Assembly: GCA_009693985.1 (NCBI GenBank)
Contig: SHWE01000003.1
Coordinates: 1-64,000, forward strand
Source of the DNA: Alphaproteobacteria bacterium
GTDB lineage: Bacteria; Pseudomonadota; Alphaproteobacteria; Micropepsales; Micropepsaceae
Reading direction: 5' to 3'
Length of the DNA stretch: 64,000 bases
Shown: in pieces, positions 39,496 through 64,000 of the stretch
Numbering within the stretch: the stretch's first letter is position 1
Layout of the letters: each line of letters opens with the position of its first letter
Notes under the pieces: generated by a model
Databases searched by the model: none
The model's input: the letters and a program-made list of their open reading frames with translations, nothing else
What the model was told of the DNA's origin: nothing
Translations under genes and position numbers: made by a program

Positions 39496-40005
39496 ATGCC
39501 GGCAGAAGATTTGACGTTCCGCAACGCCATGCGGCTGCTCGCCGGGGGCGTCACCATCATCGCCACCACATGGGAAGGCGAGCGTAGCGGGTTGACCGCG
39601 ACGGCGGTGTGTTCGCTCGCGCTCGGTCCGGCGCGGGTGCTCGCTTCGGTCAATGTGCAGGGACTTACCTATGAACTCGTGTCCAAGAGTCGAATCATGT
39701 CGGTGAACATGCTCGCCGCCGATCACGCAGGCCTCGCGGAGCGCTTTGCAAGACGGCGCGAAGGAAACGGCGAAGATCGTTTTGCCGGCTCCGACTGGCG
39801 CGAATGCAAGACGGGAGCGCCGGTGCTTGCCGATGCGCTCGCGGCCCTCGATTGCCGCGTGACGGACATCGTGCCGATCGACAGCCACGCCATTCTTATC
39901 GGCACGGTCGAGGACATTCTGTTCGGTCCGCCCCGTCAGCCGCTGATCAATTTCGAAGGCGGCTTCACCTCGATTGCCAAAGATTTTCCGGAAAGAACGA
40001 CATGA
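39496..40005 (+). CDS. Flavin reductase, HpaC-like
   Basis: FRNAMRLLAGGVTIIATTWEGERSGLTATAVCSLALGPARVLASVN; INFEGGFTSI. Confidence 0.87.
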   Translation: MPAEDLTFRNAMRLLAGGVTIIATTWEGERSGLTATAVCSLALGPARVLASVNVQGLTYELVSKSRIMSVNMLAADHAGLAERFARRREGNGEDRFAGSDWRECKTGAPVLADALAALDCRVTDIVPIDSHAILIGTVEDILFGPPRQPLINFEGGFTSIAKDFPERTT

Positions 40006-41564: not shown

Positions 41565-43091
41565 ATGGCGGCTGACCGCAAACCGGTCGCTTTCGGCGAT
41601 CTTCGGAACTGGATCGAGACCTTGCGCGAAAGCGGCGAGCTCAGCGAAGTTGCGGCCGAAGTCGATTGGAACATCGAGCTCGGCACCATCACGCGGCTCG
41701 CCCAAGGCACCGGCAAGGGCCCGGCGCTGCTCTTCAACAACATCAAGGATTACAACAAGAAGGATTCGCGCTGCCGTCGCATTTTCGCCTGCTCGCTGTC
41801 GAGCTACCGGCGGATCGCGATGATGTTGGGTCTTGCCGCCGACACGCATCCGCGCGACATGGTGAAAATCTGCCGCACCATCGTCGGCGGCAGCGTGCCG
41901 CCGAAGATCGTCGCCAGCGGTCCGGTGAAAGAGAACATCGTCAAAGGCAAGGACGTCGATCTCTATCAACTGCCGGCGCCGCATTGGAACCGCGCCGATG
42001 GCGGGCGCTATATCATCACCTATGCGGGGTGCGTCAGCAAACATCCCGACACCGGCGTAATGAATATCGGCGTCTATCGCGGCATGGTGACGGGCAAGGA
42101 CAAGATTTCCGTCCTGATGTACCGCGCCCAGAACATCGGCCATCACGTCACCGCCTGGCAGCAAAAGGGCGCCAAGGAAATGCCGGTCGCCTTCGTGATC
42201 GGCTGGGAGCCGTCGCTCGATTTCTGCGGCGGCGTGCCGGTGCCGGCGGGCGTGTGCGAATATGACGTGATGGGCGCGATACGCGGCGCCCCCGTCGAGC
42301 TCGTCAAATGCGAGACCGTCGATCTTGAGGTGCCGGCCACGGCGGAGATCGTCATCGAAGGCATGCTGCAATTCGATCCCGCGACCCATGAGCTGGAAGG
42401 GCCTTTCGCCGAGTTCACCGGCTATGTCGCCGGCGAGCGCGCGCCGCGCCCGACCGTGCGCGTGACCGCGATCACCCATCGCAACGATCCGATCCTGCGC
42501 GGCACCATCGAGGGCGCGTTGCCGAAGAGCTTTTCCGAGAATGCCTTCACCAGCTCCGTCATGCGTTCGGCGATTGCCTGGAACGTGCTCGACCGCGCCG
42601 GCGTGCCGGGCGTTACGGACGTCTGGGGCCCGCCGGTGCAGATGGGCGTGAACCTCAACGTCGCCATCAAGCAGACCTATCGCAATCAGGCCAAGCAGGT
42701 GGCGAACGCGCTGTGGGGCAGCTCCGCCGCCCATGTGCGCTACAAGCATGTCACCGTCGTCGATGAGGACATCGACATCCACGATTATTCGGCGGTCGAT
42801 TGGGCCATCGCCTATCGTGTGAATGCGGGCGAGAACGATATCGTCATCATGCCCTCGACCTTTGGCGTCGGCCTCGATCCTTCGACGCGCAAGCGCGACC
42901 GCAACATCGGCATGTACGGCACGGGCAAATGGAACCGCGTGCTGATCGACGCGACCATCAATCTCGATTACGACCCCGATCCCGATTTTAACGGCGCGCG
43001 CTTCCCGCCGACCGTGTGGCCGTCGCCCGAGGACGAGAAGGCGGCGTTAGCGCGCTGGAGCGAGCTCGGGCTCAAGAAGAGCGAATCATGA
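41565..43091 (+). CDS. UbiD-family decarboxylase, copy 3
   Basis: DLRNWIETLRESGELSEV; NIGVYRGMVTGKDKIS; HELEGPFAEFTGYVAGERAPRPTVRVTAITHRNDPI. Confidence 0.93.
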   Translation: MAADRKPVAFGDLRNWIETLRESGELSEVAAEVDWNIELGTITRLAQGTGKGPALLFNNIKDYNKKDSRCRRIFACSLSSYRRIAMMLGLAADTHPRDMVKICRTIVGGSVPPKIVASGPVKENIVKGKDVDLYQLPAPHWNRADGGRYIITYAGCVSKHPDTGVMNIGVYRGMVTGKDKISVLMYRAQNIGHHVTAWQQKGAKEMPVAFVIGWEPSLDFCGGVPVPAGVCEYDVMGAIRGAPVELVKCETVDLEVPATAEIVIEGMLQFDPATHELEGPFAEFTGYVAGERAPRPTVRVTAITHRNDPILRGTIEGALPKSFSENAFTSSVMRSAIAWNVLDRAGVPGVTDVWGPPVQMGVNLNVAIKQTYRNQAKQVANALWGSSAAHVRYKHVTVVDEDIDIHDYSAVDWAIAYRVNAGENDIVIMPSTFGVGLDPSTRKRDRNIGMYGTGKWNRVLIDATINLDYDPDPDFNGARFPPTVWPSPEDEKAALARWSELGLKKSES

Positions 43092-43555: not shown

Positions 43556-44424
43556 TCCCGTTCGATTGGGTGGAACCGCGAAGCTTTGCGGAAGCCGTGG
43601 CCTCCCTCGATCCGGAGGATCCGACCGTGCGGCCTGTGGCCGGCGGCACCGCGCTGATGCTGATGATGAAGGCCGGCGTCTTCACGCCCACGCGTCTCAT
43701 CAGTCTCGCGCAGATCGAGCCGCATTATTCCGCCATTACAGTTGAGAAGAACGGCGCGCTTCGCATCGGCGCCATGGCGACTCTTTCGGCGCTGGAGCAA
43801 TCATCCGCGGTGGCGGAGCATTTCCCGGTCATCACCGAAACCCTGCTTACGCTTTCCAATGTGCGCGTGCGCAACGTCGCCTGCGTCGGTGGCGCGCTCG
43901 CCCATGGCGATCCGCATATGGATTTGCCGCCGCTCTTCGCGGCGCTGGGCGCGAAGGTCCTGGTGCGCGGGCCGGCCGGCGTTCGCGAGATCGATGTCGA
44001 TTCGCTCTATGCCGGCTATTACGAAACCATGCTGGCGAAGGACGAGCTGATCGCGGAAGTCTTTGTGCCCGCCCTTAACGGCGCCAAATCCGCCTATATG
44101 AAATGCACGTCGCGTTCGGCAGACGATTGGCCGGCGCTGGGCCTCGCGGTTCGGTTTGAGGTCGAGGGGCACGCCCATATCCGCAATCCGCGGCTGGTGG
44201 TGAGCGCCGCTACCGAAAAAGTCACGCGGCTCACCCAAGCCGAGGATATTCTCAAAAATGCCGAAGCGGATTCCGTCGTGCTGAAACGCGCGGGCGAAGC
44301 GGCGGCCGAGGAAGTGACTCTGCTTGGCGATGCACATGGCTCCGCGTCCTATAAGCGCGAATTGCTGCGCGTCTATCTTGCCCGCGCGATCCGCCATGCG
44401 CTTGCCGGAAAGTCCGCGCAATGA
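43552..44424 (+). CDS. FAD-binding medium subunit of Mo hydroxylase (CoxM-like)
   Basis: VRPVAGGTALMLMMKAGVFTPTRLISLAQI; NVRVRNVACVGGALAHGDPHMDLPPLFAALGA. Confidence 0.9.
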   Translation: MIPFDWVEPRSFAEAVASLDPEDPTVRPVAGGTALMLMMKAGVFTPTRLISLAQIEPHYSAITVEKNGALRIGAMATLSALEQSSAVAEHFPVITETLLTLSNVRVRNVACVGGALAHGDPHMDLPPLFAALGAKVLVRGPAGVREIDVDSLYAGYYETMLAKDELIAEVFVPALNGAKSAYMKCTSRSADDWPALGLAVRFEVEGHAHIRNPRLVVSAATEKVTRLTQAEDILKNAEADSVVLKRAGEAAAEEVTLLGDAHGSASYKRELLRVYLARAIRHALAGKSAQ

Positions 44425-46697
44425 GCCAGATGGGCCGCTCCATCCCGCGTCTCGAAGCCCGTTCCAAGGTCACGGGCCGTGCCGAATATGTGCACAATAT
44501 GCGTGTGCCCGGAATGCTCACCGCCAAGATCTTCCGCAGCACGGTCGCGCATGGCCGCATTCTTTCCATCGATGCGGAAGAGGCGCGGGGGATGGAGGGT
44601 GTCTATGCCGTCGTCACCGGCGAAGACGTAAGGAAGATCATTCCTAACCCCTATTTCGGACCCGCCTTTCACGATCAGCCGATCCTTGCGCTCGACAAGG
44701 TGCGCTATGTCGGCGAAGCGGTCGCAGCGGTGCTCGCCTCCGATCCCCATATCGCCGAAGCCGCCGTCCAGACCATCTCCGCCGAATATGAGGAATTGGA
44801 GCCGGTGTTCGACGAGGTCGAAGCAACCTTGCCGAACTCTCCCATCGTCCATGACGAATTGAAGCCGGCCGGGACGTTCGCGGATTTGAAACATCTCGCG
44901 GGGCGCAAGAACACCAATATCGCGCTCGATTACCAATTGCGCCGCGGCGACGTCGATAAAGCCTTCGCCGCCGCCGTTCATGTCTTCGAGCACGAATTCC
45001 GCACCCAGCATGTTCTGCATGTGCCGCTCGAATCTCATGCGTCGCTGGCCATTCCGGGAGAAGGCACGCTGACGCTGCATACGTCGTCGCAAACGCCGTC
45101 TTTCGTGCGCATGGAGATCGCGCGCCTTCTCGGATGGCCGGAAAACCGCGTGCATGTGAAGGTGCCGTTCCTCGGCGGCGGCTATGGCGCGAAGGTCTAT
45201 GTGAAGGTCGAGCCGCTGGCGGTTGCGCTGGCGCTCATCGTGCGCCGCCCCGTCAAAGTTGCGCTCACGATGGAAGAGCAATTCTACACCATCACCAAGC
45301 ATCCGGTGACGTTCCGCATCAAGAGCGGCGTCGACAAGGACGGCCGCATCACCGCGCGCAAATGCGACGTGTATTGGAACGGCGGCGCCTATGCCGATAT
45401 CGGTCCGCGCGTGGCGCAGAAGACGGGCTTCACCGCGCCCGGGCCTTACGACATCGACAATGTCAGCATCGATTCCTACGAGGTCTATACCAACCGGCCG
45501 CCGGCGGGCGCGCTGCGCGGCTTCGGCGTGCCGCAACTCGTCTGGGCCTATGAATCCCACACCGATCTGATCGCGCGCGAGCTTGGGCTAGATCCGGTGG
45601 AGTACCGCCGCAAGAACATCCTTCGTGACGGGCGGCCGCACGCGACCGGCACGATCATGAAGGACGCCGGCATCGATGCGGTGCTCGATCGCATCGCCGA
45701 GCGGATGAATTGGAGCGTGGCCATCGACCGCGGCACGGGTCGTATCAAGCGTGGGCGCGGCATCGGTATCGGCTTCAAGGCCTCGATCTCGCCGACCACC
45801 TCGGGCGCCATCGTCAATGTCAGCGCCGACGGCAGCGTTGTCATCTTCACCAACACGATCGATATGGGGCAGGGCTCCGACACCGCGATGGCGCAGCTCG
45901 CGGCCGAAGTGCTCAATATCGACGCCGAGAAGGTGAAGGTCGTGCATGGCGATACCGATGCCGCGCCCTATGACATGGGCACGCTGGGCTCGCGCTCGAC
46001 CTTCCATATGGGCAACGCGGTCAAGCTTGCCGCCGAAGACGCGCGCGACAAGCTTGTCGCATTGGCCGCTGAAGTGGGCCTGCCAGCCGGCACCAATTAC
46101 GACGTCCAAGAGCTGTTCCGAAAGCGTTACGGCATGCGTGCCGGCAACATCGTCGGCGTCGGAAGCTACGTTCCGAGCTACACGCCGCCCGATCCGAAGA
46201 CAGGCCAATCCGCCAATGTCACGCCGTTCTGGATGGTGGGCGGCGCGGGCGCCGAGGTGGAGGTCGATACCGAAACCGGCCATGTGCGGGTGACCAAGCT
46301 CGTCAACGTCGCCGATGGCGGCAAGATCATCAATCCGAAAATCGCGCGCACGCAGATTTCGGGCGGCGCGATCATGCAATTGGGCTTCACGCTGACCGAG
46401 AGAATGGAGTTCGACGGCGGTCAGGTCACCAACGCGTCCTTCGCCGATTACAAGATCCCCGGTTTCCGCGATGTGCCGCCGATGGAATCGGAATTGATCG
46501 CGGCCAATCAGGAAAATGGCCCCTTTGGCGCCAAGGGTATCGGTGAGTCGGCGACCTTCGGCGTGTCGCCGGCCATCGCCAATGCGATCCATGACGCGGT
46601 GGGCGTGCGGCTGACCTCACTCCCCATCAAGGCCGAAGCGGTGTTGCGCGCCCTTCGCGCTGCGCAAGGTAATCCCCTCGCAGAGGACGAGGAATGA
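44421..46697 (+). CDS. Molybdopterin-binding large subunit of Mo hydroxylase
   Basis: SIPRLEARSKVTGRAEYVHNMRVPGML; FLGGGYGAKV; GALRGFGVPQLVWAYESHTDLIA; DMGQGSDTAMAQLAAEVL; GAKGIGESATFG. Confidence 0.93.
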   Translation: MSQMGRSIPRLEARSKVTGRAEYVHNMRVPGMLTAKIFRSTVAHGRILSIDAEEARGMEGVYAVVTGEDVRKIIPNPYFGPAFHDQPILALDKVRYVGEAVAAVLASDPHIAEAAVQTISAEYEELEPVFDEVEATLPNSPIVHDELKPAGTFADLKHLAGRKNTNIALDYQLRRGDVDKAFAAAVHVFEHEFRTQHVLHVPLESHASLAIPGEGTLTLHTSSQTPSFVRMEIARLLGWPENRVHVKVPFLGGGYGAKVYVKVEPLAVALALIVRRPVKVALTMEEQFYTITKHPVTFRIKSGVDKDGRITARKCDVYWNGGAYADIGPRVAQKTGFTAPGPYDIDNVSIDSYEVYTNRPPAGALRGFGVPQLVWAYESHTDLIARELGLDPVEYRRKNILRDGRPHATGTIMKDAGIDAVLDRIAERMNWSVAIDRGTGRIKRGRGIGIGFKASISPTTSGAIVNVSADGSVVIFTNTIDMGQGSDTAMAQLAAEVLNIDAEKVKVVHGDTDAAPYDMGTLGSRSTFHMGNAVKLAAEDARDKLVALAAEVGLPAGTNYDVQELFRKRYGMRAGNIVGVGSYVPSYTPPDPKTGQSANVTPFWMVGGAGAEVEVDTETGHVRVTKLVNVADGGKIINPKIARTQISGGAIMQLGFTLTERMEFDGGQVTNASFADYKIPGFRDVPPMESELIAANQENGPFGAKGIGESATFGVSPAIANAIHDAVGVRLTSLPIKAEAVLRALRAAQGNPLAEDEE

Positions 46698-49992: not shown

Positions 49993-50388
49993 TTAGTCCA
50001 ATTCGTGCTTGGTAAGCTCGTCCATCACGATGACGACCGTGCCGTCGAATTCGTGCCGCGCGCCCGTCAAATGGTCGATGCCGTTCGAAAACGGAACATC
50101 CCATTTCCCTTCGGCCGGCGCGAGGTAGACAAGCGCATCCTCGTAGCCATGGGCGCTGCACAGAAGGGTGAGCTCGGCTCTGCTGCGCGGGACCGTCATG
50201 GTGTGGAAGGTCGGATAGTAAATGCCCACAATCTCGCCGTGCTGCCAGCCGGTGCAATCGGCATCGACCGGGCTGACATTCAGGAAAATGGTCTGGGACG
50301 TGCCGTCCATGATAGTGGCGCAGCCGGCAAGCAGGGCCGCAGCCACGCACGCCGTCAATCCCAACCGATGCTTCAAGCCTTTAGCCAT
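49993..50388 (-). CDS. Putative lipoprotein of unknown function
   Basis: Lipobox AALLAGC; TIMDGTSQTIFLNVSPVDADCTGW. Confidence 0.65.
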   Translation of the reverse strand: MAKGLKHRLGLTACVAAALLAGCATIMDGTSQTIFLNVSPVDADCTGWQHGEIVGIYYPTFHTMTVPRSRAELTLLCSAHGYEDALVYLAPAEGKWDVPFSNGIDHLTGARHEFDGTVVIVMDELTKHELD

Positions 50389-51654: not shown

Positions 51655-52218
51655 CTATCGGGCTTGGCTTCCGGAAAACAACCGCACAATCGCGCGCTTT
51701 ATGCGCGCGAACAGACCGGGCTTCTCGCCCGCGCTTGGCGCATGCGGGCGCGGAGAGGCGGCAGGTTCGGGCGCCGCGATGGGTTTCTCCACCACGCCGG
51801 CGAATTTCTTGAAGAATTGCTCGGCGAGAGATTTGGCGGTGGCGTCGATCAGGCGCGCGCCGACTTGCGCGATCTTGCCGCCGACCTGCGCATCGACCGT
51901 ATAGGTCAGAAGCGTGCCCGCGTCCCGATCGATCAGCCGCACCTCGGCGCCGCCTTTGGCGAAACCGGCCGGGCTCTGGCCCTCGCCGCTGATCTTGTAG
52001 CCGTTCGGCGGATCGAGGTCGGAGAGAGTCACCTTGCCCTGGAACTTGGCCGACACCGGACCGAGCTTGATCCCGGCCACCGCCTTCATCTGCGTGTCGG
52101 AAATCTTCTCGATGCTCTCGCAGCCCGGTATGCAGGCTTTCAGGACTTCGGGATTGTTCAGACCGGCCCAGACGGCTTCGCGCGGCGCGGCGATGAACCG
52201 CTCTCCTGTCATGTTCAT
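51655..52218 (-). CDS. CoxG-family (SRPBCC) protein with C-terminal extension
   Basis: MNMTGERFIAAPREAVWAGLNNPEVLKACIPGCESIEKISDTQMKAVAGIKLGPVSAKFQGKVTLSDLDPPNGY; start at ATG 52218. Confidence 0.9.
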   Translation of the reverse strand: MNMTGERFIAAPREAVWAGLNNPEVLKACIPGCESIEKISDTQMKAVAGIKLGPVSAKFQGKVTLSDLDPPNGYKISGEGQSPAGFAKGGAEVRLIDRDAGTLLTYTVDAQVGGKIAQVGARLIDATAKSLAEQFFKKFAGVVEKPIAAPEPAASPRPHAPSAGEKPGLFARIKRAIVRLFSGSQAR

Positions 52219-52339
52219 TCGGCGAAGCTCCTTGGCCGGGACGCGGGCGGCGGTCCTTTGTATGTCTGTCTTACAATAGCACCGGCAAAACGATAGAACA
52301 CCTGTCGAAAGCCATGGCGCGTCCATTTGCGCGCGCGCC

Positions 52340-53083
52340 ATGCGGCAGGGGGAAGCGTTGGCAGTCGAGCCTACAGCCAGATTGACGCCGCTGCAGCATC
52401 AGGCGGCACCCTTGCGCAACAAGATCATCGCCGCGCTCAGGGGCGCCATCGAATCGGGCGTGCTGCAGCCGGGCGCGCGGCTGGTGGAGCGCGATCTCTG
52501 CGGACAGCTCAATGTCAGCCGGACGTCGCTGCGCGAGGCGCTCCGGGAGTTGCAGGCGGACGGCATATTGCTCCAGGCCGGAGCGCAGGGCCTCGCCGTA
52601 AACAGGGTCACGCGCGAGGAGGCCGCCAATGTCTATCGCATCCGCTCCGTGCTGGAAGCGCTGGTGGTGGAACAGTTCATCGAACGCGCCGGCGATGACG
52701 ACATCGCGCGTATCGTTAGGGACGCGGACGGATTGAAGACGGCCTATCGCTCGGGCGACATCGCGCGGATTTTGACCAGCAAGCGGGCCTTCTACGACCG
52801 CATCTGCACCGTGGCCGACAATGCGCTCGCCTTCGACATCCTCAATCGGCTGGTGCTCAGAACCTCCTCCTTGCGCAGCCGCTCGCTCGCCCGAAAGCAG
52901 CGCCAGCAGCAGAGCCCCGGCGAGATCGATGCGATTCTCAAGGCGATCCGCAATCGCGATGCCGCCGCCGCCAGGAAAGCGGCCATCGCCCATGTCGAGA
53001 GCGCGGCGGCTTCGGCCTTCGCCGCCAGTTTTCCCGACCCGGAAATTCCGCCCGCCGCAAAGACGAAGAAGAAACGGCCCTGA
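52340..53083 (+). CDS. GntR-family (FCD/FadR-type) transcriptional regulator
   Basis: IIAALRGAIESGVLQPGARLVERDLCGQLNVSRTSLREALRELQADGIL; C-terminal helical FCD-like domain. Confidence 0.9.
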   Translation: MRQGEALAVEPTARLTPLQHQAAPLRNKIIAALRGAIESGVLQPGARLVERDLCGQLNVSRTSLREALRELQADGILLQAGAQGLAVNRVTREEAANVYRIRSVLEALVVEQFIERAGDDDIARIVRDADGLKTAYRSGDIARILTSKRAFYDRICTVADNALAFDILNRLVLRTSSLRSRSLARKQRQQQSPGEIDAILKAIRNRDAAAARKAAIAHVESAAASAFAASFPDPEIPPAAKTKKKRP

Positions 53084-53086
53084 AAT

Positions 53087-53902
53087 CTATTTGAACGACT
53101 GAAGCGCGCCGGGCTTCGCCACCGCGCGGCCCGCGAGCACGCGGATCAGATGGGCGCGATATTCCCCGGTGGCGTTCAGATCGTTGAGCAGGGAATCGGG
53201 ATCGACGCTGCAATGCGCCACCGCTTCGGGACGGAAATCGGCGCTCAGCGCGGCTTCAAACTCCGCTGGACGGAACACGCCGGATGCGCCCGCGCCCGTC
53301 ACCGCAACCCGCACATTCTTGCCGGTTCGCGCCACGAACACGCCGACGATGGAATAGCGCGAAGCGGGGCTGCGGAATTTGGCGTAACACGCGGAATCGG
53401 GAATGGGGAACTCGATGCGCGTGACGATTTCGCCCGGTTCGCGCAGCGTCTGATAGAGACCGGTGAAGAAATCGTCGGCCGCGATACGCCGCCGGTCGGT
53501 CACGATGGTCGCGCCCAGCGCCAGAACCGCGGAAGGGTAATCGGCTGCCGGATCATTGTTGGCGGTCGATCCGCCGATAGTGCCGCGGTGGCGCACATGG
53601 CGGTCGCCGATGGAACCTGCGAGCCCCGCGAGAACCGGAATGGCATCGCGCACGATTTTCGATTCCGCCACCTCGGCGTGCGTCGTGGCGGCGCCGATCT
53701 TCAACAGGCGTGCCTCCACGGCGATGCCGCGCATCTCGGGGATAGCGGTCAGGTCGATCACATCGCTGGGCGCGGCAAGGCGCTGCTTCATCGTCGGCAG
53801 AAGCGTATGGCCGCCGGATAGAAAGGTCGCGTCCGCGCCGGCGCCGAACAGTTCCTTGGCTTCGGCCAGCGTCTTGGGGCGGTGGTAGACGAGAGGATAC
53901 AT
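53087..53902 (-). CDS. FAD-binding medium subunit of Mo hydroxylase (CoxM-like)
   Basis: ATFLSGGHTLLPTMKQRLAAPSDVIDLTAIPEM; VRHRGTIGGSTANNDPAADYPSAVLALGA. Confidence 0.92.
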   Translation of the reverse strand: MYPLVYHRPKTLAEAKELFGAGADATFLSGGHTLLPTMKQRLAAPSDVIDLTAIPEMRGIAVEARLLKIGAATTHAEVAESKIVRDAIPVLAGLAGSIGDRHVRHRGTIGGSTANNDPAADYPSAVLALGATIVTDRRRIAADDFFTGLYQTLREPGEIVTRIEFPIPDSACYAKFRSPASRYSIVGVFVARTGKNVRVAVTGAGASGVFRPAEFEAALSADFRPEAVAHCSVDPDSLLNDLNATGEYRAHLIRVLAGRAVAKPGALQSFK

Positions 53903-53904: not shown

Positions 53905-54423
53905 CTAGCCCTCCGTCTTCGCGTGGTCGGATGCGGGCTGCACGACACGATCCGGTCCCAGCATTTCTTCGGCCGCCGTCAAAATGGCGCGCACGATATT
54001 ATGGTAGCCCGTACAGCGGCAGAGATTGCCTTCCATCTCCTCGCGCACGACATGCTCGTTCAGGGTACCGGGATAGGTGGCGATCAGTTCGGTAGCGGCC
54101 ATGATCATGCCGGGCGTGCAGAAACCGCATTGCAGGCCGTGACATTCGCGGAACGCCTTCTGCACGGGATGGAGTTGGCCACCTTCCGCCAATCCTTCGA
54201 TGGTGGTCACCGCATGCCCGGCCGCTTGGCCGACGAGCACGGTGCAGGACTTCACCGATACGCCGTCCAGATGCACGACGCAGCAGCCGCATTGAGTCGT
54301 GTCGCAGCCGACATGGGTGCCGGTCAGTCCCAGATGCTCGCGCAGGAATTCCGACAGCAGCGTGGGATCGGCCACGTCCTTCGTGATGTCCGCGCCGTTC
54401 ACCTTCATCGCGATTCTGGACAT
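53905..54423 (-). CDS. (2Fe-2S)-binding small subunit of Mo hydroxylase (CoxS-like)
   Basis: [54 protein letters not shown]; start ATG at 54423 overlaps the large-subunit stop. Confidence 0.93.
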
Positions 54424-56843
54424 CAGGCGCTTTTCCCTTTGTGAATAGCGGTCCAGATCTTCAATGGCGTCGCCGGCATCGAGACGTCTGGCGGGCCGTA
54501 ATCGAGCAGCGCGTCCTCGATGGCGCTCATGATCACGGCGGGCGCGGGCGTGGTGCCGCCTTCGCCACCGGCCTTCACGCCCAACGGATTGGTGGGAGAA
54601 ATCACCTCCGCGATCTCGGTGACGAAAGAGGGCATGTTGTCGAAGCGCGGCATGCCGTAATCGGTGAAGGCGGCCGCCAGCGGCTGACCGGATTCGGGAT
54701 CGATCACGCAGCCTTCCCACAGCGCCTGACCGACGCCTTGCGCGATGCCGCCATGCGTCTGGCCATGCACGATCATCGGATTGATGCAGCGGCCGACATC
54801 GTCGACGGTGGCATAGCGCAACAGCTCCAGCCCGCCGGTCTGCGGATCGATCTCGATCTCGCACATGCACGAGCCGTTCGGGAAGACCGGCGTGTGCATC
54901 TCATTGTCGCGCCGCACCTTCACCCCATCGGCGTGATCGGGCGAAAGTGCGATGGCAAGGCGCGCCAGATCGAACCAGTCGATGGTGCGGTTGCTGGCGG
55001 TGCTGCGGAAGCAGCCATCGTCGAATTCGACCGAGGCCGGATCGATGTTCAGGCTCGCCGCCATGATGGCCTTGCCCTTGGCGATCATGTCGGTGACGGC
55101 GAGAGAGATGACGGCGCTGGCATGGCGCATCGAGCGCCCCGAATGGGTGCCGCCGCCCGCCGACACCACATCGGTGTCGCCGAGCGTGATCTTGACCTTC
55201 TCGAACGCGATGCCGAGAAGATCGGCGGTGACTTGCGCGAAGCTGGTCTCGTGGCCTTGTCCCGCGGGCTGGGTGCCGATGACCACTTCGACTCCGCCGG
55301 GGCGCACGATCAGATCGGCGCGTTCCTTGGGCGTGCCGATGGAGGATTCGACGTAATTGGCGAAACCGATGCCGAGCAGCTTGCCGCGCGCCTTGGCTTC
55401 TTCTTTGCGTTTCTTGGCGCCTGCGAAATCGCCGATCTCCAACAGGCGGTCCATGTTTTTTTCGTACTCGCCGCTGTCATATTTCGAGCCGACCGCGTTG
55501 GTATAGGGCATCTGCGACGGCTTCACGAGATTGCGCCGGCGCAGCGCGATGCGGTCATAGCCGAGCTCGCGCGCCGCCTTGTCGATCAGACGCTCAATCG
55601 CGAAGGTCACCTCGGGGCGGCCCGAACTGCGATAGGCCTGGGTCGACATCGTGTTGGAATAGACCGCGCGCGAATGCAGCGTGGCGTAAGGAATGTCGTA
55701 GGAGCCGGTGATCAGGCCCGATCCTTTGCTGAGCGGCGACAGCGACACGCAGCGCGCGCCGACATTCGAAAGATTGTGCGCGCGCAGTGCGAGGAACTTG
55801 CCGTTGGCGTCGATGGCCAGCGAGACTTCGGTGACGAGATCGCGACCCTGATAATCGGTGAGGAAGGATTCGGAGCGGTCGGCACGGAATTTTACCGGAC
55901 GGCCGAGCTTCTTCGCCGCCCATACCACCAGTCCGAATTCTATGAAGGCGCGGTTGCGGGTGCCGAAATTGCCGCCGACGTCGAACGAAATAACGCGCAT
56001 CTTGTCGGGCGTCACGCCCAGCACCGAAGACATCTCGTGCTTTTGACGCACGGCGCCGCCGCTGCCGGCATAGAGCGTGTAACGGCCGGTCTTGGCGTCG
56101 TAGTCGCCGAGCGCGGCGCGCGGCTCCAACGGCACGCCGGTGACGCGGCCAAGATGGGTGCGCATGCTGACCACATGGGCGGCGCCGGCGAAGGCGGTGT
56201 CGGTGTTCTTCACATCGCCGAAAATGCTGTCGACCAGCACATTGTCGGGGAGCGCGTCCCACAGGCGCGGCGCGTCCGGCGCGGTGGCGGCCGTCGTGTC
56301 GGCGACCCAGGGCAGGGGATCGTAATCCACCATCACGGCTTCCGCGCCCGCCTGCGCTTGCTGGCGCGTTTCGGCGACCACCATCGCCACCGCTTCGCCG
56401 ACATGCCGCACGCGATCCATGGGGAGCAAATAATGTTCGCCGATATAGACGGGAGTCCCGCCGCGCCCCGTGAGCTTCACGTCGTATTTGGTGGAGGGCA
56501 CCGGATTGTGCGCGATCTGGCCGAGCCCGTCGGCGGCGAGATCGGCGCCCGTGTAAACGCCAAGTACGCCGTCCATCTCGAGGGCCGCGGAGACATCGAT
56601 GCCTTTGATCGTCGCGTGCGGATGGGGCGAGCGCACCATCACCGCGAAGACCTGGCCCGGTAGGCTGAAATCATCCGTGAACCGGCCACGGCCAGTGATC
56701 AGCCGCTCGTCTTCATTGCGGCGAACGGGTTTGCCGACGGATTTGAATTTCTGCGGTGGCAGGCTCAATTTTATGCGCTCTTGCAGGGGGGCGAATTGGT
56801 CTTTTGTATTATGGTCGACCAAATTCCACAAGGAGGCCAACAT
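54423..56843 (-). CDS. Molybdopterin-binding large subunit of Mo hydroxylase (CoxL-like); start uncertain (56768-56843)
   Basis: [85 protein letters not shown]. Confidence 0.9.
56812..56821. promoter_or_regulatory. Candidate operator palindrome (GntR/FCD-type)
   Basis: Perfect palindrome TGGTCGACCA within ATTATGGTCGACCAAAT between the divergent CoxSML operon and the secreted-protein operon. Confidence 0.35.
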
Positions 56844-56929
56844 GGGAACGCTGCCGCGGGCTATCGCTAAGGCCTTATCGGCCCCGAGCCTGCGGTGTAT
56901 CGTTCCCCCATACACAAGGGGAGGTTGGC

Positions 56930-57421
56930 ATGCGCGGTCTTGCTCTATTCGTGGCAGGCATTCTGGCTGGTGGATTGGCGGTCCATACGGCCGTCGCCCA
57001 AAACCAAAATCGGGGTCCGAACCGTGGCGTCGTCGGGCTCAATCATGTCGGGATCATCGTGCCCGACCTCGATAAAGCGGTCGAGTACTACACCAAGACG
57101 ATGGGCTTCCCCGAAGCCTTCCGCTTCGTCAATCCGCAAGGACAGGTGCAGCTGGTCTATGTCCAGATCAGCCAGAACACTTTCGTCGAACTGCAACCCG
57201 CCAATGGACGCCCGCTCGGCGTCTCGCATTTCGGTTTGCACGTCGAGAACATGAATGCGGCAACGGCGATGTTCAAGGCGCGCGGCGCCAATGTGGCCGA
57301 GACGACGCTCAGCGGCACCAAGGCGATCCTCTCCAATATCGCCGCTCCGGACGGCATCCGCATGGAATTGTCCGAGCTTCCCCCTGAATCGCTGCACAGG
57401 CAGGCAATGAATCGCTGGTGA
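56930..57421 (+). CDS. Secreted VOC (glyoxalase/dioxygenase-fold) protein
   Basis: Signal peptide MRGLALFVAGILAGGLAVHTAVAQ; GLNHVGIIVPDLDKAVEYYTKTMGFPEAFRF; HFGLHVENMNAATAMFKARGA. Confidence 0.88.
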   Translation: MRGLALFVAGILAGGLAVHTAVAQNQNRGPNRGVVGLNHVGIIVPDLDKAVEYYTKTMGFPEAFRFVNPQGQVQLVYVQISQNTFVELQPANGRPLGVSHFGLHVENMNAATAMFKARGANVAETTLSGTKAILSNIAAPDGIRMELSELPPESLHRQAMNRW

Positions 57422-57460
57422 GAAAATCACACGTCATGGCAAACAAATGGAGGGACCACC

Positions 57461-58582
57461 ATGAAACATCGATCCGTCATCGCTAACGGAGTGCTATTTG
57501 CGGCCGTCTGTATGCTTGGTCTGTCGCACGAAGCGGCGGGGCAGGCGGGACAGCAGAACGGAATGGTTCTGCTCACGGACGGAACAAGCCTCGCCAATTT
57601 CGATCAGGCCGGCAACGCGAACTGGCATGTCGCCGAACGCACCGTCGTTTCCGACCGGGGCGCCGGTTTCCTGGTCACCAAACAATCCTATGGCGACTTT
57701 CGCTTCCGGGCCGAGTTCTGGGCGGATGAGGAAACCAATAGCGGCATCTTCATCCGGTGCGCCAATCCGCAAGCGCCCAGCGCCGCGACTTGTTACGAAG
57801 TGAATATTTTCGACAACAATCCCAATCGCGGCAACGCCACGGGTTCGGTCGTCGGTATCGCCAAACCAACTCCCGTGCCTCAAACCGCTCTCAAATGGAA
57901 CGTCATCGAAGTCGAGGCCAAGGGCACGCTGCTCAACGTCTCCGTCAACGGAGAGCGCACCGTCAGCGTTCATGACACGAAGCACGCGCGCGGCCGCATT
58001 GCGCTGCAACGCAACAGCGGCGTGATCCGGTGGCACAAGGTAGAAGTCCAGGCGCTCACCCCGGCCGATATCGCGGAAAACGCAACCCCGCTTGCCGCCA
58101 ATTGCCAATATGGTTTCGCCGTGATCTGGCCCGGTCAGCCGATGGTCAGGGACATAAGCTATACGACCTCCACCGGGATCAACGCTCCCGCCAAGCAGTT
58201 CTATGTGGAGCAGAACGGCAGCAAATATTGGGAGACCGTCGTGGAGCTCCCGAACGGGCCGAGGGCGGACTATGAGATCGTCATGCAGGCGCTGGCCGAG
58301 CTGAGCAAGAAGGGCGAAGTTCGTTTCCGCGGCTTTGGCGATTACGATCCCGGAATGCCTGGCGGCCAGCTCAATATCTTCCAACCGAACGGAAGGCAGA
58401 TTCGCGCGTCGATCTATATGGCCAACCACCGCCTCTTCATTACCGAGACGGAGGCTGTTGCCGGCGAACAGGCCGCCCTTCTGTTCGAGCAATCGATCAC
58501 GCTGATCAATCACGTCGGAACCAGCATCGATCGGGTCAACGCACAGAACGACCCGGGACCGCCCTACGATTGCGGGCGGTAA
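57461..58582 (+). CDS. Secreted DUF1080-like (3-keto-disaccharide hydrolase/LamG-type) domain fused to a C-terminal domain shared with 63422-63967
   Basis: YGDFRFRAEFWADEETNSGIFIRC...NWNVIEVEAKG-type pattern; C-term ANCQYGFAVIWPGQPMVRDISYTTS...RQLNIFQPNGR-like block. Confidence 0.8.
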   Translation: MKHRSVIANGVLFAAVCMLGLSHEAAGQAGQQNGMVLLTDGTSLANFDQAGNANWHVAERTVVSDRGAGFLVTKQSYGDFRFRAEFWADEETNSGIFIRCANPQAPSAATCYEVNIFDNNPNRGNATGSVVGIAKPTPVPQTALKWNVIEVEAKGTLLNVSVNGERTVSVHDTKHARGRIALQRNSGVIRWHKVEVQALTPADIAENATPLAANCQYGFAVIWPGQPMVRDISYTTSTGINAPAKQFYVEQNGSKYWETVVELPNGPRADYEIVMQALAELSKKGEVRFRGFGDYDPGMPGGQLNIFQPNGRQIRASIYMANHRLFITETEAVAGEQAALLFEQSITLINHVGTSIDRVNAQNDPGPPYDCGR

Positions 58583-58603
58583 TTCACCGAGGGGGGAAGC
58601 AAC

Positions 58604-59461
58604 ATGTCCTCGTTCACTGGGAGACAAAGGCTTCTGGCGGGCGCCATTCTCGCAAGTCTCTTAGGCATGGCGCCGATGGTCTCGACACTGGCGCAGCAAC
58701 AGGCCGCTCCCCCCGATTTCTCGTCGAACCTCGCCGGCTGGATCGGACTCAATGGCGGCGGTCCGTTCTTCGAAGCCGCGCCCGGGCGTGTTCCGGGACC
58801 TGTCGTCAGCGATCCGGCGCATCCCTTCGTCCCCAACGGCACCGACAAGCAGCCGACTTTCCGGATCGCCGATCTTTCCAATCCCAATCTGATGCCCTGG
58901 GTGAAGGAGTATATGAAGAAGGACATCGACGAGATTCTCGCCGGCAAGAAGCCTGCGTTCACCGCGCAATCGAGCTGCTGGCCGTCGGGGGTTCCCGGCT
59001 TCATGGGATATGGCGGGCCGGACCCCATCGTCTTCCTGCAAACGCCCAAAATCGTCTGGCTCATGTGGCAGGAGGATAACCAATCCCGGCGCATCTATAT
59101 GAACGTGCCTCACTCCGCCAATCCGAAGCCGTCATGGTATGGCGAATCGGTCGGCCGTTACGAAGGCGACACGCTCGTCATCGACACGATTGGGTTGAGC
59201 GACAAGACCTTCGTCGACATCTACCGCACGCCGCACACCGAAAAGCTGCACGTCGTCGAGCGCTGGCGCATGATCGACGGCGGCCGGATGATGGAAGTGA
59301 TATTCACGGTAGAAGACACCGGGGCCTTCTATCAGCCCTGGACTGGAATGCGGCGCTACCGGCGCGTGACACAGGAGGCTTATGAAAAGATCTGCGCCGA
59401 GAACAACACGTTCAACCTCATCGACTATAAGGTTCCAAGCGCCGAGAAGCCGGATTTCTGA
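58604..59461 (+). CDS. Secreted uncharacterised protein, paralog family (member 5, subfamily A)
   Basis: NPKPSWYGESVGRYEGDTLVIDTIGLSDKTFVDIYRTPHTEKLHVVERWRMIDGG; SCWP/ICAEN; C-term AEKPDF. Confidence 0.88.
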   Translation: MSSFTGRQRLLAGAILASLLGMAPMVSTLAQQQAAPPDFSSNLAGWIGLNGGGPFFEAAPGRVPGPVVSDPAHPFVPNGTDKQPTFRIADLSNPNLMPWVKEYMKKDIDEILAGKKPAFTAQSSCWPSGVPGFMGYGGPDPIVFLQTPKIVWLMWQEDNQSRRIYMNVPHSANPKPSWYGESVGRYEGDTLVIDTIGLSDKTFVDIYRTPHTEKLHVVERWRMIDGGRMMEVIFTVEDTGAFYQPWTGMRRYRRVTQEAYEKICAENNTFNLIDYKVPSAEKPDF

Positions 59462-59471
59462 GGAGTCGCCT

Positions 59472-60317
59472 ATGTCAAAGTTCCCATTCGCAGCGCGGCT
59501 TCTGGCCGGCGGCACGGCAATTCTCGCCGCGGCAATTTTTGTTGCCGGCGCGGCCGCGCAAACGCCCGCCTCGCCGCCCGATTTTTCCTCGAACGAAACC
59601 GCGTGGCAGGGCGGCAACGGCGTCAACTTCATCGCCGTTCCCGGCTCGCCCCGTCCTGTGACCAACGATCCGGCCCATCCCCATATCAGCAATGGTGAAG
59701 CCACGCGCAGGAACATCCAGCCGACCTACCGCATCGCCGATCTTACCAACCCCAATCTGAAGCAATGGGCCAAGGACGTCATGAAGAAGGACAATGACGA
59801 GGTCCTCGCCGGGAAGGTCGGCTACACGCCGGGCTCGTCCTGCAAACCGGCGGGCGTTCCCGCCTTCATGCTGGATGGCGGCCCGTTCTTCTTCGTCCAG
59901 ACGCCCAAGAAAGTCACGATCATCGCGCAAGGCGGGCCGGATGTGCGCCACATCTATATGGACGCGCCCCATTCGAAGAACATCAAACCGTCCTGGTACG
60001 GAGAATCGGTCGGCCATTACGAGGGCGACACGCTGGTCATCGATACGATCGGGCTGAACACCAAGAGTTTCGTCGATCATTTCCGCACGCCGCACACCGA
60101 GAAGCTGCACGTCGTTGAGCGCTGGCGAATGATCGAGGGCGGCAAGCAGATCGAATCCCTCATCACCATCGATGACCCGGACACGTTCAATCAGCCCTGG
60201 CAGGCGGTCCTGCGCTGGAACCGCGTGCAGAGGACGTTGCCGGAGATCATCTGCGCCGAGGGCAATTTGACGCTTTTCGATTACGATACGCCCATGGACG
60301 ACACACCGGACTTTTGA
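59472..60317 (+). CDS. Secreted uncharacterised protein, paralog family (member 6, subfamily A)
   Basis: IKPSWYGESVGHYEGDTLVIDTIGLNTKSFVDHFRTPHTEKLHVVERWRMIEGGK; SCKP/ICAEG; C-term DDTPDF. Start ATG 59472. Confidence 0.88.
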   Translation: MSKFPFAARLLAGGTAILAAAIFVAGAAAQTPASPPDFSSNETAWQGGNGVNFIAVPGSPRPVTNDPAHPHISNGEATRRNIQPTYRIADLTNPNLKQWAKDVMKKDNDEVLAGKVGYTPGSSCKPAGVPAFMLDGGPFFFVQTPKKVTIIAQGGPDVRHIYMDAPHSKNIKPSWYGESVGHYEGDTLVIDTIGLNTKSFVDHFRTPHTEKLHVVERWRMIEGGKQIESLITIDDPDTFNQPWQAVLRWNRVQRTLPEIICAEGNLTLFDYDTPMDDTPDF

Positions 60318-60330
60318 GCGAGGACTAAAG

Positions 60331-61179
60331 ATGAAAAAGCGGATTTTCACGGGCGCGGCTTTTGTCGCGGCAATCGCCTTTTTTGCCGCCGGAGCGGAAG
60401 CACAGAACAATGCCATTCCCAATTTCAGCTTCATCGAGTCCGGCTGGCTGCTTCAGGGCGGCATCAACTACCGGCCCATTCCCGGCAAGGTTGCGCCGAT
60501 CGCCGCCGACCCCGCCTATCCGCAAACGGGCGAGGGCAATCAGCGCGGCGTGATGGAGCGCATGTCCGATGCCGAGAACGCCAATCTGAAGCCGTGGGCG
60601 AAGGAATTGATGCGGAAATACAATCGCGATGTGCTGGACGGCCACCGCGCTTTCTCGTCGCAATCGCGTTGCTGGCCGGGCGGCACGCCGGGCCAATTGC
60701 TGTTTCCGGCCGAGCCCGTCTTCTTCGTCCAGACGCCGAAGCTGGTGCTGATGATGTGGCAGCGCCAGCAGGAGGTGCGCCGCATCCGTATGAACGTGCC
60801 GCATTCGCGCAATCCGAAGCCGTCCTGGTTCGGGGAATCCGTCGGCCGTTACGAGAACGGCGAGCTGGTCGTCGACACGATCGGTTTCCTCGACCGCAAG
60901 GAATTCGATTTTCTGGACAATTGGCGCACGCCCCATACCAAGGATTTGCATGTGGTGGAGCGGTTCAAGCTGATCGACGACGGCAAGGGACTCGAGGCGA
61001 CCGTGACGGTCGATGATCCCGGCACGTTCAACCAGCCCTGGTCGGGTACGGTGCGGTGGCAGAAAGTCGATCGCGGTCCGATTGGCGAGTCAATTTGCGC
61101 GGAAAACAACGACGTCTTCGAGAAATTTTTCGGACTTCAGGAATATCCGATGCCGCAGGCCAAGACGCCGGATTTCTGA
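60331..61179 (+). CDS. Secreted uncharacterised protein, paralog family (member 7, subfamily A)
   Basis: NPKPSWFGESVGRYENGELVVDTIGFLDRKEFDFLDNWRTPHTKDLHVVERFKLIDDGK; RCWP/ICAEN; C-term AKTPDF. Confidence 0.88.
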   Translation: MKKRIFTGAAFVAAIAFFAAGAEAQNNAIPNFSFIESGWLLQGGINYRPIPGKVAPIAADPAYPQTGEGNQRGVMERMSDAENANLKPWAKELMRKYNRDVLDGHRAFSSQSRCWPGGTPGQLLFPAEPVFFVQTPKLVLMMWQRQQEVRRIRMNVPHSRNPKPSWFGESVGRYENGELVVDTIGFLDRKEFDFLDNWRTPHTKDLHVVERFKLIDDGKGLEATVTVDDPGTFNQPWSGTVRWQKVDRGPIGESICAENNDVFEKFFGLQEYPMPQAKTPDF

Positions 61180-61215
61180 TTCTTTGAGGAAGCAATTTCA
61201 CATTTGGAAGGAAAC

Positions 61216-61623
61216 ATGCTCATGACATTTGTTCGGTCGGGACTGTTTGTTGCGATAGCGATGGTTGCGATGGCGCCCGCCGGCGCGGCGCTGGCGCAGG
61301 ATTTGCCGCAGCGGAAGGAAATACGGCGGATCGACCTGTCCGGCGCGCCGGGCATGGAGGTCGTCAGTTCCGTCAGCACATTCAAAGCAGGCGACGAATT
61401 CCCCCGTCATCTCCATCACGGCGTCGAGTTGGGCTATGTCGTTCAGGGAGCGATGATTCAATTGCCGGGGCAAGCGCCGGCGATGATGGCGACGGGGGCG
61501 CCGATCCAGAACCTGCGCGATGCGGTCCATGGCGGATTCAAGGTCGTCGGACCCGGCGACCTCATCCTCTTCACGGTGCACTCGGTGGATAAGGGAAAAC
61601 CGCTTTACGATTGGGTTAAGTAA
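61216..61623 (+). CDS. Secreted single-domain cupin protein
   Basis: Signal peptide; FKAGDEFPRHLHHGVELGYVVQGAMIQLPG cupin motif 1; PGDLILFTVHSVDKGKPLYDWVK. Confidence 0.82.
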   Translation: MLMTFVRSGLFVAIAMVAMAPAGAALAQDLPQRKEIRRIDLSGAPGMEVVSSVSTFKAGDEFPRHLHHGVELGYVVQGAMIQLPGQAPAMMATGAPIQNLRDAVHGGFKVVGPGDLILFTVHSVDKGKPLYDWVK

Positions 61624-61643
61624 TTCGAGGCGAGGATAGGACG

Positions 61644-62519
61644 ATGAAGAAGCGCGTCTTCGCGGGTGCGATCGCCGCGATGGTGGTGGTGCCCGTCACT
61701 GCGACGCCGGCCGAAACCATTCCCGATTTCTCGGGGATATGGTGGCATCCCTCGCTTCCCGGTCCCGAACCGCTGGCGTCCGGTCCCACGAGCTTGCGGA
61801 ACATGACGCGGCGTAAGGCCGACGGCGCGAGCGACTACAACGAGCTGGTCGGCGACTACAGCAATCCGATTCTGAAACCCGAAGCCGCGCAAATCGTGAA
61901 GAAGCACGGCGAACTTTCCAAGGCCGGTGTCGTTTACCCGAACCCGGCCAGCCAATGCTGGCCGGAACCGTTGCCGTTCATCTACAAGAATTTTGGACTC
62001 CAGATTCTTCAGCAACCGCACCAGATCACGATGCTCTACGAGCAGGATCACGAGGTTCGCCGCGTGCGCATGAACCAGGCGCATCCCGCTGTGGTGACGC
62101 CGTCCTGGTATGGGGATTCGGTCGGCTATTACGACGGCGACACGCTGGTGATCGACACCGTCGGACAAAAGGCCGGGCCGTTTTCGATGCTCGATCTCTA
62201 CGGCACGCCCTACACAAAGGCGCTGCATGTCGTGGAGCGTTATCGGCTGCTCGATTACGATGAAGCGAAAGAGGGCTTGGACCGCGACACCAAAGAGAAT
62301 TTTCATGCCCCGGTCGGCATCGACCGCACCTATCGCGGCAAGCACTTACAAGTGCGCTTCACGGTCGAGGATGACGGCGTCTTCACCACGCCGTGGTCGG
62401 CCACCGTCACCTATGGGCGCGGCTCCACCGACTGGCCGGAAACGGTCTGTGCCGAAAACGTCCGCGTCTATTACAGCACGGACACCGCCGTTCCGACCGC
62501 GGACAAACCGGATTTCTAG
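61644..62519 (+). CDS. Secreted uncharacterised protein, paralog family (member 8, subfamily B)
   Basis: IPDFSGIWWHP; LVGDYSNPILKPEAAQIVKKHG; PSWYGDSVGYYDGDTLVIDTVG; QCWP/VCAEN; C-term ADKPDF. Confidence 0.88.
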   Translation: MKKRVFAGAIAAMVVVPVTATPAETIPDFSGIWWHPSLPGPEPLASGPTSLRNMTRRKADGASDYNELVGDYSNPILKPEAAQIVKKHGELSKAGVVYPNPASQCWPEPLPFIYKNFGLQILQQPHQITMLYEQDHEVRRVRMNQAHPAVVTPSWYGDSVGYYDGDTLVIDTVGQKAGPFSMLDLYGTPYTKALHVVERYRLLDYDEAKEGLDRDTKENFHAPVGIDRTYRGKHLQVRFTVEDDGVFTTPWSATVTYGRGSTDWPETVCAENVRVYYSTDTAVPTADKPDF

Positions 62520-62521
62520 CG

Positions 62522-63418
62522 ATGCGCTTCTCGACCGGTCTCACGCTTAGCCTTTGCGCCGCTGCCGTCGCCGCGTCCGTAGCGGCGGCGCCTGCTCCTT
62601 CCGCGACTCCCACTCCGGATTTCTCCGGCATTTGGTCCCACCCTTTCCTCACCGGCATGGAGCCGCCGAAATCTGGCCCCGGCCCGGTGACGAACAAATC
62701 GCGCCGGCCCACTGGCGTGGCCAATTTCCAGATTCTGGTCGGCGATTACACCAATCCGATCCTGAAGCCCGACGCGGGCCAGATCGTCAAGCAGCACGGC
62801 GACCTTTCGCTCGGAGGCATCGGCTATCAGACCCCGAGCAATCAATGTTGGCCCGGCGGCGTGCCCTATGTGTTTTGGGATTTCCTGGTGCAGATATTCC
62901 AGACGCCGGACCACGTCACCATGCTCTATCGCCACGGCAATGAGACGCGCCGCGTGCGCCTGAACGCGTCGCATCCGGCGAAGGTGACGCCGTCCTGGTA
63001 TGGGGATTCGGTTGGCCGCTATGAAGGCGACACGCTGGTGATCGACACGGTGGGGATCAAAAAAGGGCCGTTCGCCATGCTCGACATGTACGGCACGCCG
63101 TTCACCGAGAAGCTGCATGTGGTGGAACGCTACCGCCTCGTCGATTACGACACCGCCAAGGACGCGATCGACCGCAATGCCAAGGAGAATTCCATGGCCG
63201 GCGAGGGCTGGGGCTTCGATCCCAACTATCGGGGCAAGGTGCTGCAGCTCCATTTCACGGTCGAGGATGAGGGCGTTTTCACGACGCCTTGGACGTCGAC
63301 CATCACCTATCGGCCCGCCGTGAATCCCTGGCCGGAACTCATCTGCGCCGAAAACACGCGCGAATATTATAACAACCGGGACTCCGCCATTCCGACGGCC
63401 GACAAACCGGATTTCTAG
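62522..63418 (+). CDS. Secreted uncharacterised protein, paralog family (member 9, subfamily B)
   Basis: TPDFSGIWSHP; LVGDYTNPILKPDAGQIVKQHG; PSWYGDSVGRYEGDTLVIDTVG; QCWP/ICAEN; C-term ADKPDF. Start ATG 62522, 2 nt after the previous stop. Confidence 0.88.
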   Translation: MRFSTGLTLSLCAAAVAASVAAAPAPSATPTPDFSGIWSHPFLTGMEPPKSGPGPVTNKSRRPTGVANFQILVGDYTNPILKPDAGQIVKQHGDLSLGGIGYQTPSNQCWPGGVPYVFWDFLVQIFQTPDHVTMLYRHGNETRRVRLNASHPAKVTPSWYGDSVGRYEGDTLVIDTVGIKKGPFAMLDMYGTPFTEKLHVVERYRLVDYDTAKDAIDRNAKENSMAGEGWGFDPNYRGKVLQLHFTVEDEGVFTTPWTSTITYRPAVNPWPELICAENTREYYNNRDSAIPTADKPDF

Positions 63419-63421: not shown

Positions 63422-63967
63422 CTATTTCCGACAATTGTACTGGCGTGACGGCTGATTGCCGTTCTTGTCGAGATCGGTGCCCATGGCATTGATGATCGAG
63501 ACCGATTGCTCGAACTGAAGCGCGCGAAAATCTCCCGGCGCGGCATTGGCCTCCGTGATGTAAAGACGGTGGTCGTGCATGTAGACCGACGCCCTGTGCT
63601 GGCGGCCATTGGGCTCGTAGATGTTGAGCTGGCGGCCCGGGATTCCCGGATCGTAATTTTCGGCAAACTGGAAACGTACCTCGCCGCGCCGGCGTATGGG
63701 TACCGCGGCGGCCTCGACGATCGCGGCGTCCACGGCCGGCCCGGGCGAGAAGTCGGCGATGATCACGCTGAACGTATCGGTGCCCTGTTGGGCGGAGAAC
63801 TGCCGCGCCGGAACGCTGCGGCCGCTATTCGTGTAGATGAAATCCCTGATCGTCGGCGCCGCCGGGAAAATGGCGGCCATCCGGTACTGGCAGTTCACAT
63901 AGACGTTCTCGTCATAGGTGGGTTCGTCGAGCTGAGACCGGGCGGCAGCGCCTGTGAAGAGGACCAT
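63422..63967 (-). CDS. Secreted protein consisting of the domain found at the C-terminus of 57461-58582
   Basis: YVNCQYRMAAIFPAAPTIRDFIYTNSGRSVPARQFSAQQ...RGEVRFQFAENYDPGIPGRQLNIYEPNGRQHRASVYMHDHRLYITEANA...FEQSVSIINAMGTDLDKN aligns colinearly with the 57461 protein C-term. Confidence 0.8.
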   Translation of the reverse strand: MVLFTGAAARSQLDEPTYDENVYVNCQYRMAAIFPAAPTIRDFIYTNSGRSVPARQFSAQQGTDTFSVIIADFSPGPAVDAAIVEAAAVPIRRRGEVRFQFAENYDPGIPGRQLNIYEPNGRQHRASVYMHDHRLYITEANAAPGDFRALQFEQSVSIINAMGTDLDKNGNQPSRQYNCRK

Positions 63968-64000
63968 GGCGGCGCAGGAAAGGAGGATGGCGCGGAGTGG

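Follow-up and report, generated by a model that had tools for sequence, protein, structure and literature searches.

Gene organization of the operon

We analyzed a 64,000-nucleotide (nt) stretch of DNA, referred to below as the window (positions 1 to 64,000 of contig SHWE01000003.1, from a soil alphaproteobacterium of the Micropepsaceae), and focused on eight open reading frames (ORFs) that lie head to tail on the plus strand between 56930 and 63418. The first gene (56930-57421) encodes a predicted secreted VOC (glyoxalase-fold) protein of 163 amino acids with matches to PF13669 and PF00903, and the second (57461-58582) a predicted secreted protein in which a DUF1080 (3-keto-disaccharide hydrolase) domain (PF06439) is followed by a C-terminal domain (approximately 58070-58579) that was modeled as PsbP-like. 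These are followed by three paralogs, p3 (58604-59461), p4 (59472-60317), and p5 (60331-61179), which we assigned to subfamily A of a family of predicted exported β-barrel proteins (profile scores of 456, 454, and 453 bits, respectively). A predicted secreted cupin-like protein of 135 amino acids (61216-61623), recognized by its metal motif and by sub-threshold matches to Cupin_2 and Cupin_7, separates them from two subfamily B paralogs, p7 (61644-62519; 402 bits) and p8 (62522-63418; 416 bits). The intergenic gaps, from the VOC gene through p8, are 39, 21, 10, 13, 36, 20, and 2 nt. Identity is 47-59% among p3, p4, and p5, 57% between p7 and p8, and 37-41% between the two subfamilies. The coordinates, the close spacing (2-39 nt), and the division of the paralogs into subfamilies A and B all agree with what the initial annotation of this DNA had described. 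A promoter scan gave no promoter-like site, and terminators were found at chance level.

The initial annotation had also noted a signal-like segment at the N-terminus of every product, and this was borne out. A heuristic for Sec-type leaders, which requires a positively charged start, a hydrophobic core, and small residues ahead of the cleavage site, accepted all eight products, against a background of 534 of the 1718 called genes in this genome (31%) and 44-47% in stretches rich in the paralog family. Within the 1.95 of 2.01 Mb (97%) of the assembly that was read in stretches (the genome is 63.6% complete), the operon is the longest co-directional run of genes that all carry leaders; the automatic run-finder gave seven genes because the gene caller skipped the short VOC gene, and with it the run is eight. 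Since five of the eight products are homologous, this count does not represent eight independent events. The leaders of the VOC protein, the cupin, and the DUF1080 fusion are nevertheless likely to be genuine, because their orthologs also carry leaders, whose sequences are different even though the mature proteins resemble each other. On the strength of these leaders, the operon products are predicted to be exported. Another co-directional run in which all products appear secreted, comprising six genes, is present in the same genome (locus L103, contig C15, approximately 7939-13096); this stretch holds tandem PsbP-like genes homologous to the second domain of the DUF1080 fusion.

A large family of predicted exported barrel proteins

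The unusual feature of this locus is not the eight-gene arrangement but the paralogs themselves: their family is very large and has no name, and the operon is one of its clusters. None of 110 aligned relatives matched any Pfam or NCBIfam model, those distant members that were compared with Pfam likewise gave no match, and a literature search found no paper describing the family. Copy numbers were taken from profile searches, as the automatic gene caller missed a few members. This genome, at its 63.6% completeness, contains 25 family matches (threshold 1e-3), including one weak match. In congeners, the numbers are 91 in G001 (99% complete, 3.9 Mb) and 30 in G006, and all six genomes of the genus other than the present one hold at least 20 copies. 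Among 30 genomes that belong to the same taxonomic family but to other genera, there was no match at 1e-10, and of 298 other genomes sampled across the phylum, 8 gave matches, which were weaker and confined to the core region. Outside this genus, two Acidobacteria metagenome-assembled genomes (MAGs; the sources of loci L067 and L078) contain 113 and 74 copies, mostly divergent from the members in the window, and Centralia_MAG_73, labeled Hyphomicrobiales, contains 91. The barrel family is thus broad and expanded in some lineages, and its transfer between phyla is possible. Tandem arrays are common, with 27 adjacent pairs among the 91 members in G001. The paralogs in the present array are 33-63% identical and have separate orthologs elsewhere; therefore, the array did not arise by recent duplication.

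The AlphaFold model of mature p3 (pLDDT, the predicted local distance difference test, 91; predicted template modeling score 0.89) comprises an N-terminal region with one long helix, followed by eight strands. Its best fold matches in the PDB were fatty acid-binding protein (FABP) and cellular retinoic acid-binding protein (CRABP), both weak (E-value 2.2e-3; template modeling (TM) score 0.48 by target and 0.28 by query). We regard the paralogs as calycin-like barrels, judging from this model, and do not place them in the calycin superfamily. While they have a predicted eight-stranded antiparallel barrel in common with FABPs and lipocalins, they differ from them in the weakness of the match, the lack of sequence similarity, approximately 100 extra N-terminal residues, a set of invariant polar residues, and two cysteines. 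A profile built from the 110 aligned sequences retrieved nothing up to E = 1 among the sequences of solved structures. With a five-row profile, the sole hits among solved structures were antibody heavy chains (best E 0.014), which we rejected as chance matches.

Several residues have been retained throughout the family. Cys94 and Cys233 (numbering of mature p3) are invariant in the 110 sequences and probably form a disulfide bond, which fits with export. Arg131, His139, Ser151, Asp163, Thr164, and Asp207 are also invariant in these divergent sequences, and His185, Glu188, and Arg189 are conserved in at least 98% of them. This polar set suggests a shared chemistry.

The VOC, cupin, and DUF1080-PsbP proteins

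The VOC protein scored above the Pfam cut-offs for PF13669 (45.1 bits; cut-off 27) and PF00903 (42.1 bits; cut-off 20.6). By inspection against the motif, its predicted metal ligands, His39, Glu87, His100, and Glu146, form a complete set that is kept in the G001 and G005 orthologs. Its nearest relatives, glyoxalase I and methylmalonyl-CoA epimerase, share the fold family and the four-ligand metal motif. However, the operon protein is predicted to be exported, and its scores fall far below the NCBIfam equivalog cut-offs for the two enzymes (37.7 versus 120 bits and 36.5 versus 114.95 bits, respectively). The cupin-like protein remained under the Pfam cut-offs for Cupin_2 (23.2 versus 27.2 bits) and Cupin_7 (22.7 versus 27 bits); cupin motif 1, G(X)5HXH(X)3E(X)6G, appears intact by inspection at residues 59-78 and is kept in orthologs.

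The DUF1080 domain matched PF06439 with 103.3 bits (cut-off 26.8). DUF1080 proteins act on 3-keto-glycosides; a function is known for few members, and one has been proposed to be periplasmic in Caulobacter (PMC9007349). In the structural model of the fusion protein (pLDDT 90), the top four PDB matches of the C-terminal domain were all of the PsbP type (CyanoP/PsbP; E 2.0e-3, TM 0.54), and this second domain is accordingly predicted to be PsbP-like. The same fusion, 52% identical, occurs in G002 and G005. Directly downstream of p8, a predicted secreted stand-alone PsbP-like protein is encoded on the minus strand at 63422-64147 (63422-64000 within the window); it matched the C-terminal domain of the fusion in a phmmer search (1.4e-43), and its gene lies tail to tail with p8 at a distance of 3 nt. 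Both proteins have a predicted fold in common with PsbP, CyanoP, and DcrB-like proteins, from which they are set apart by a non-photosynthetic context, by the absence of a Pfam match for the PsbP-like domain, and, in the fusion, by attachment to a hydrolase domain.

Gene order in relatives

The VOC and cupin genes occur as single copies in the same four of the seven genomes of the genus, with identities of 64-68% and 69-79%, respectively; they were not found in the other three, and some of the genomes are incomplete. The cupin gene stands beside a paralog in all four. In G002 and G005, the VOC gene directly adjoins a p3-type paralog, with genes for pyrroloquinoline quinone (PQQ) dehydrogenases alongside. 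The order in G001 is p5, cupin, cytochrome c, PQQ alcohol dehydrogenase, and a paralog of a further type, the N-type (p5 85% and cupin 79% identical to the genes here); in G005 it is A-type paralog, cupin, N-type, B-type, and B-type, and in G002 cupin and N-type paralog. The p3 ortholog of G001 (locus L014; 70% identical) is accompanied by a block encoding the large, small, and medium subunits of a molybdenum (Mo) hydroxylase, a GntR regulator, and CoxG, in which the large subunit is 74% identical to that adjoining the operon. Likewise, the p4 ortholog of G001 adjoins a GSDH gene that is 76% identical to the GSDH gene downstream of the operon. Because the VOC-p3, p5-cupin, p3-Mo-hydroxylase, and p4-GSDH pieces are conserved separately, we conclude that the operon has been assembled from smaller modules (VOC-p3, p5-cupin, and B-type pairs) that occur separately elsewhere.

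Enzyme genes near the barrel family

We examined associations with enzyme genes in a set of fetched loci, which had been gathered by searching for the barrel family and overlap in source; the base rate of genes no more than two genes away from a family member was 45%. Against this rate, 10 of 11 PQQ dehydrogenase genes lay within two genes of a family member (p = 0.002), as did all eight DUF6152 genes (p = 0.0016). The PQQ alcohol dehydrogenases were identified by TIGR03075 above its cut-off; for DUF6152, our literature search found no paper. TonB-receptor-like genes, identified by eye, were near family members in five of seven cases, which is not significant (p = 0.15). In G001, five of nine PQQ alcohol-dehydrogenase-like loci are within 5 kb of a family member, where approximately 1.3 would be expected (counted by eye). 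Adjacency of DUF6152 and barrel genes was also seen in distant genomes (L089, L090, L092, L093, L095, L096, and other loci), and both products look exported.

Genes surrounding the operon

The contig continues past the window to 71718, and the block of secreted genes likewise runs beyond the window edge, with the stand-alone PsbP-like gene as a ninth secreted gene and two further paralogs (64169-65077 and the N-type 65093-65959 of the contig). Beyond 65959, a minus-strand series encodes a GSDH-type PQQ dehydrogenase (66048-67574; 2.6 kb past the end of the operon), a di-haem peroxidase, a propeller protein of the Vgb type, and an amidohydrolase. On the other side, and divergent from the operon, lies the gene for a Mo-hydroxylase large subunit (54423-56915, minus strand; MoCoBD_1/2), whose start codon is uncertain, followed by those for the small subunit (53905-54870, likely shorter), the medium subunit (53087-53902), a GntR regulator (52340-53083, plus strand; GntR/FCD), and CoxG (51655-52341). 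Four more members of the barrel family are present in the window, two on the minus strand (5891-6778 and 6791-7690) and two on the plus strand (27053-27967 and 30650-31660, the latter with a true start probably near 30800).

The window additionally contains three UbiD-type decarboxylases and one HpaB-type hydroxylase (29270-30742, 35936-37498, 41565-43091, and 39804-41492), and Mo-hydroxylase large subunits are encoded at 383-2806, 16794-19130, and 44421-46697 besides 54423-56915. Proteins resembling 4,5-dihydroxyphthalate decarboxylase or NMT1-type binding proteins adjoin barrel-family genes three times in this genome (window 4920-5894; L110, 9714-10703; L113, 3879-5961). A putative small lipoprotein (window 49993-50388) resembles by eye the product of L096 5869-6255, which directly follows the VOC gene in G001; the resemblance failed a BLAST cut-off of 1e-30.

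Proposed function and alternatives

The initial annotation had envisaged an extracytoplasmic reaction or a binding cascade. All products look exported, the metal motifs are complete, and the neighbors in relatives include periplasmic oxidoreductases (PQQ dehydrogenase and cytochrome c), which agrees with an extracytoplasmic reaction, whereas the cascade and the substrate are still matters of conjecture. Our tentative proposal, which we hold with somewhat less than even confidence, is that the genes form a cluster for periplasmic catabolism made up of paired modules, with each barrel paralog working alongside a particular oxidative or metal enzyme. Such a cluster would have been put together for extracytoplasmic catabolism from several small modules. 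Each paralog would bind in its barrel, and perhaps modify, one kind of small, rather hydrophobic compound of plant or soil origin; that the nearest folds are those of the lipid-binding FABPs counted for such a carrier role. In this scheme, the partner of p3 would be the Mo-hydroxylase, that of p4 a soluble PQQ dehydrogenase of the sugar type, and that of p5 the cupin; the N-type paralog (65093-65959) would be served by a PQQ alcohol dehydrogenase together with cytochrome c. The VOC and cupin proteins would provide two periplasmic metal sites, the DUF1080-PsbP protein would probably free the sugar part of glycosides after 3-oxidation, and the Mo-hydroxylase block would complete product breakdown in the cytoplasm. 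In favor of the proposal are the leaders on all eight products and the length of this run, their retention in orthologs, the module synteny, the joint occurrence of VOC and cupin in four of seven genomes, the PQQ dehydrogenase genes close to family members, and the activity of DUF1080 proteins on 3-keto-glycosides. What we observed is the order of the genes, their leaders as judged by the heuristic, domains, predicted folds, module synteny, and copy numbers, whereas actual export, ligand binding or catalysis, the substrate, the paralog-enzyme pairing, and electron flow are inferred.

Two known systems provide partial parallels. The periplasmic 3-keto-glycoside pathway of Caulobacter, consisting of LacABC and a DUF1080 protein (PMC9007349), likewise has an exported DUF1080 protein within a periplasmic catabolic gene set. 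In contrast, the operon described here is without a LacABC-type dehydrogenase, and its DUF1080 protein carries an additional PsbP-like domain and is encoded together with VOC and cupin proteins and barrel paralogs. Genes for periplasmic oxidation by PQQ-dependent alcohol dehydrogenase (TIGR03075) and cytochrome c are found next to family members and the cupin in G001 and next to VOC-p3 in G005, whereas none is located within the operon, and only the GSDH-type PQQ dehydrogenase is encoded nearby.

A number of observations weigh against a catabolic cluster of paired modules. Neither a transporter nor a LacABC-type 3-dehydrogenase gene was found in the operon, and none of the four PQQ alcohol-dehydrogenase-like genes in this genome is near a family member. 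Aromatic-type genes were enriched near the family in this genome (14 versus 2.3 expected; p = 0.0016, shift test), in a set picked after viewing the neighbors, and the link to aromatic catabolism did not replicate for the UbiD and Rieske families in G001 and did so only weakly, for Rieske, in G006. Because that set was post hoc and the UbiD/Rieske test in G001 failed, we propose periplasmic catabolism without specifying aromatic substrates. With respect to the barrels, the model of p3 had no structural match at E ≤ 0.001, the likeness to FABPs is weak, and so many invariant polar residues would be equally compatible with an enzyme and with a carrier. The main rival explanation starts from this last point: the family may consist of enzymes with one conserved active site (candidate residues His139, Asp163, His185, Glu188, Arg189, and Asp207 of mature p3) that catalyze one type of reaction, such as hydrolysis, lysis, or isomerization, on many substrates. 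Carriers of different ligands would not need to keep the same polar residues across 110 divergent sequences, and family members adjoin very different oxidoreductases. On the other hand, the family shows no sequence similarity to any enzyme family, its fold matches are binding proteins, and the conserved residues may be structural; we consider this explanation possible but rather unlikely.

The eight-gene order raises the further question of whether the operon has a common function. Conservation of the gene neighborhood, suggested as a check in the initial annotation, holds for the pieces, which are syntenic in relatives, and not for the unit: the full order was not found in G001, G002, or G005, making it specific to this genome, and in G002 and G005 the DUF1080 fusion is located away from the operon modules. 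This also counts against paired modules working as one cluster and, together with the frequency of tandem arrays seen in G001, would suit a duplicating secreted family that merely acquired unrelated neighbors. We judge such a chance assembly improbable, given the repeated independent linkage of p5- or N-type paralogs with the cupin and of p3-type paralogs with the VOC gene over three to four genomes, the joint presence of VOC and cupin in the same four genomes, and the divergence of the array paralogs, which argues against recent duplication. Still less probable, in our estimation, is a role of the exported proteins in signaling or envelope homeostasis, in which they would sense or bind compounds outside the cell but carry out no catabolic step themselves. 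Non-catalytic binding proteins do occur among calycin-like, PsbP-like, and cupin folds, and the TonB-receptor-like genes near the family, at their non-significant frequency, would be in line with such a role; however, the operon was not found to encode a receptor, kinase, or anti-sigma partner, the GntR gene close by is part of the conserved Mo-hydroxylase block, and the metal-ligand motifs of the VOC and cupin proteins are complete.

Implications

A barrel family not covered by any Pfam or NCBIfam model is present in 91 copies in a single 3.9 Mb genome and in more than 100 in a soil acidobacterial MAG. More speculatively than the catabolic cluster itself, and with low confidence, the paralogs might represent a new class of exported barrels that serves as a general periplasmic platform for substrate handling and has expanded, in Acidobacteria and in a single alphaproteobacterial genus, to tens or about a hundred copies in each genome. 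Every copy would have a dedicated oxidoreductase or metal enzyme as its partner, and the repertoire would mirror the carbon compounds that the organism can use. The conserved modules p5-cupin, VOC-p3, p4-GSDH, and p3-Mo-hydroxylase offer concrete pairs for expression and assay. If the members are substrate-specific periplasmic catabolic proteins, many hypothetical genes of soil bacteria would gain a testable function, and this would help to account for the use of plant-derived carbon by uncultured soil bacteria.

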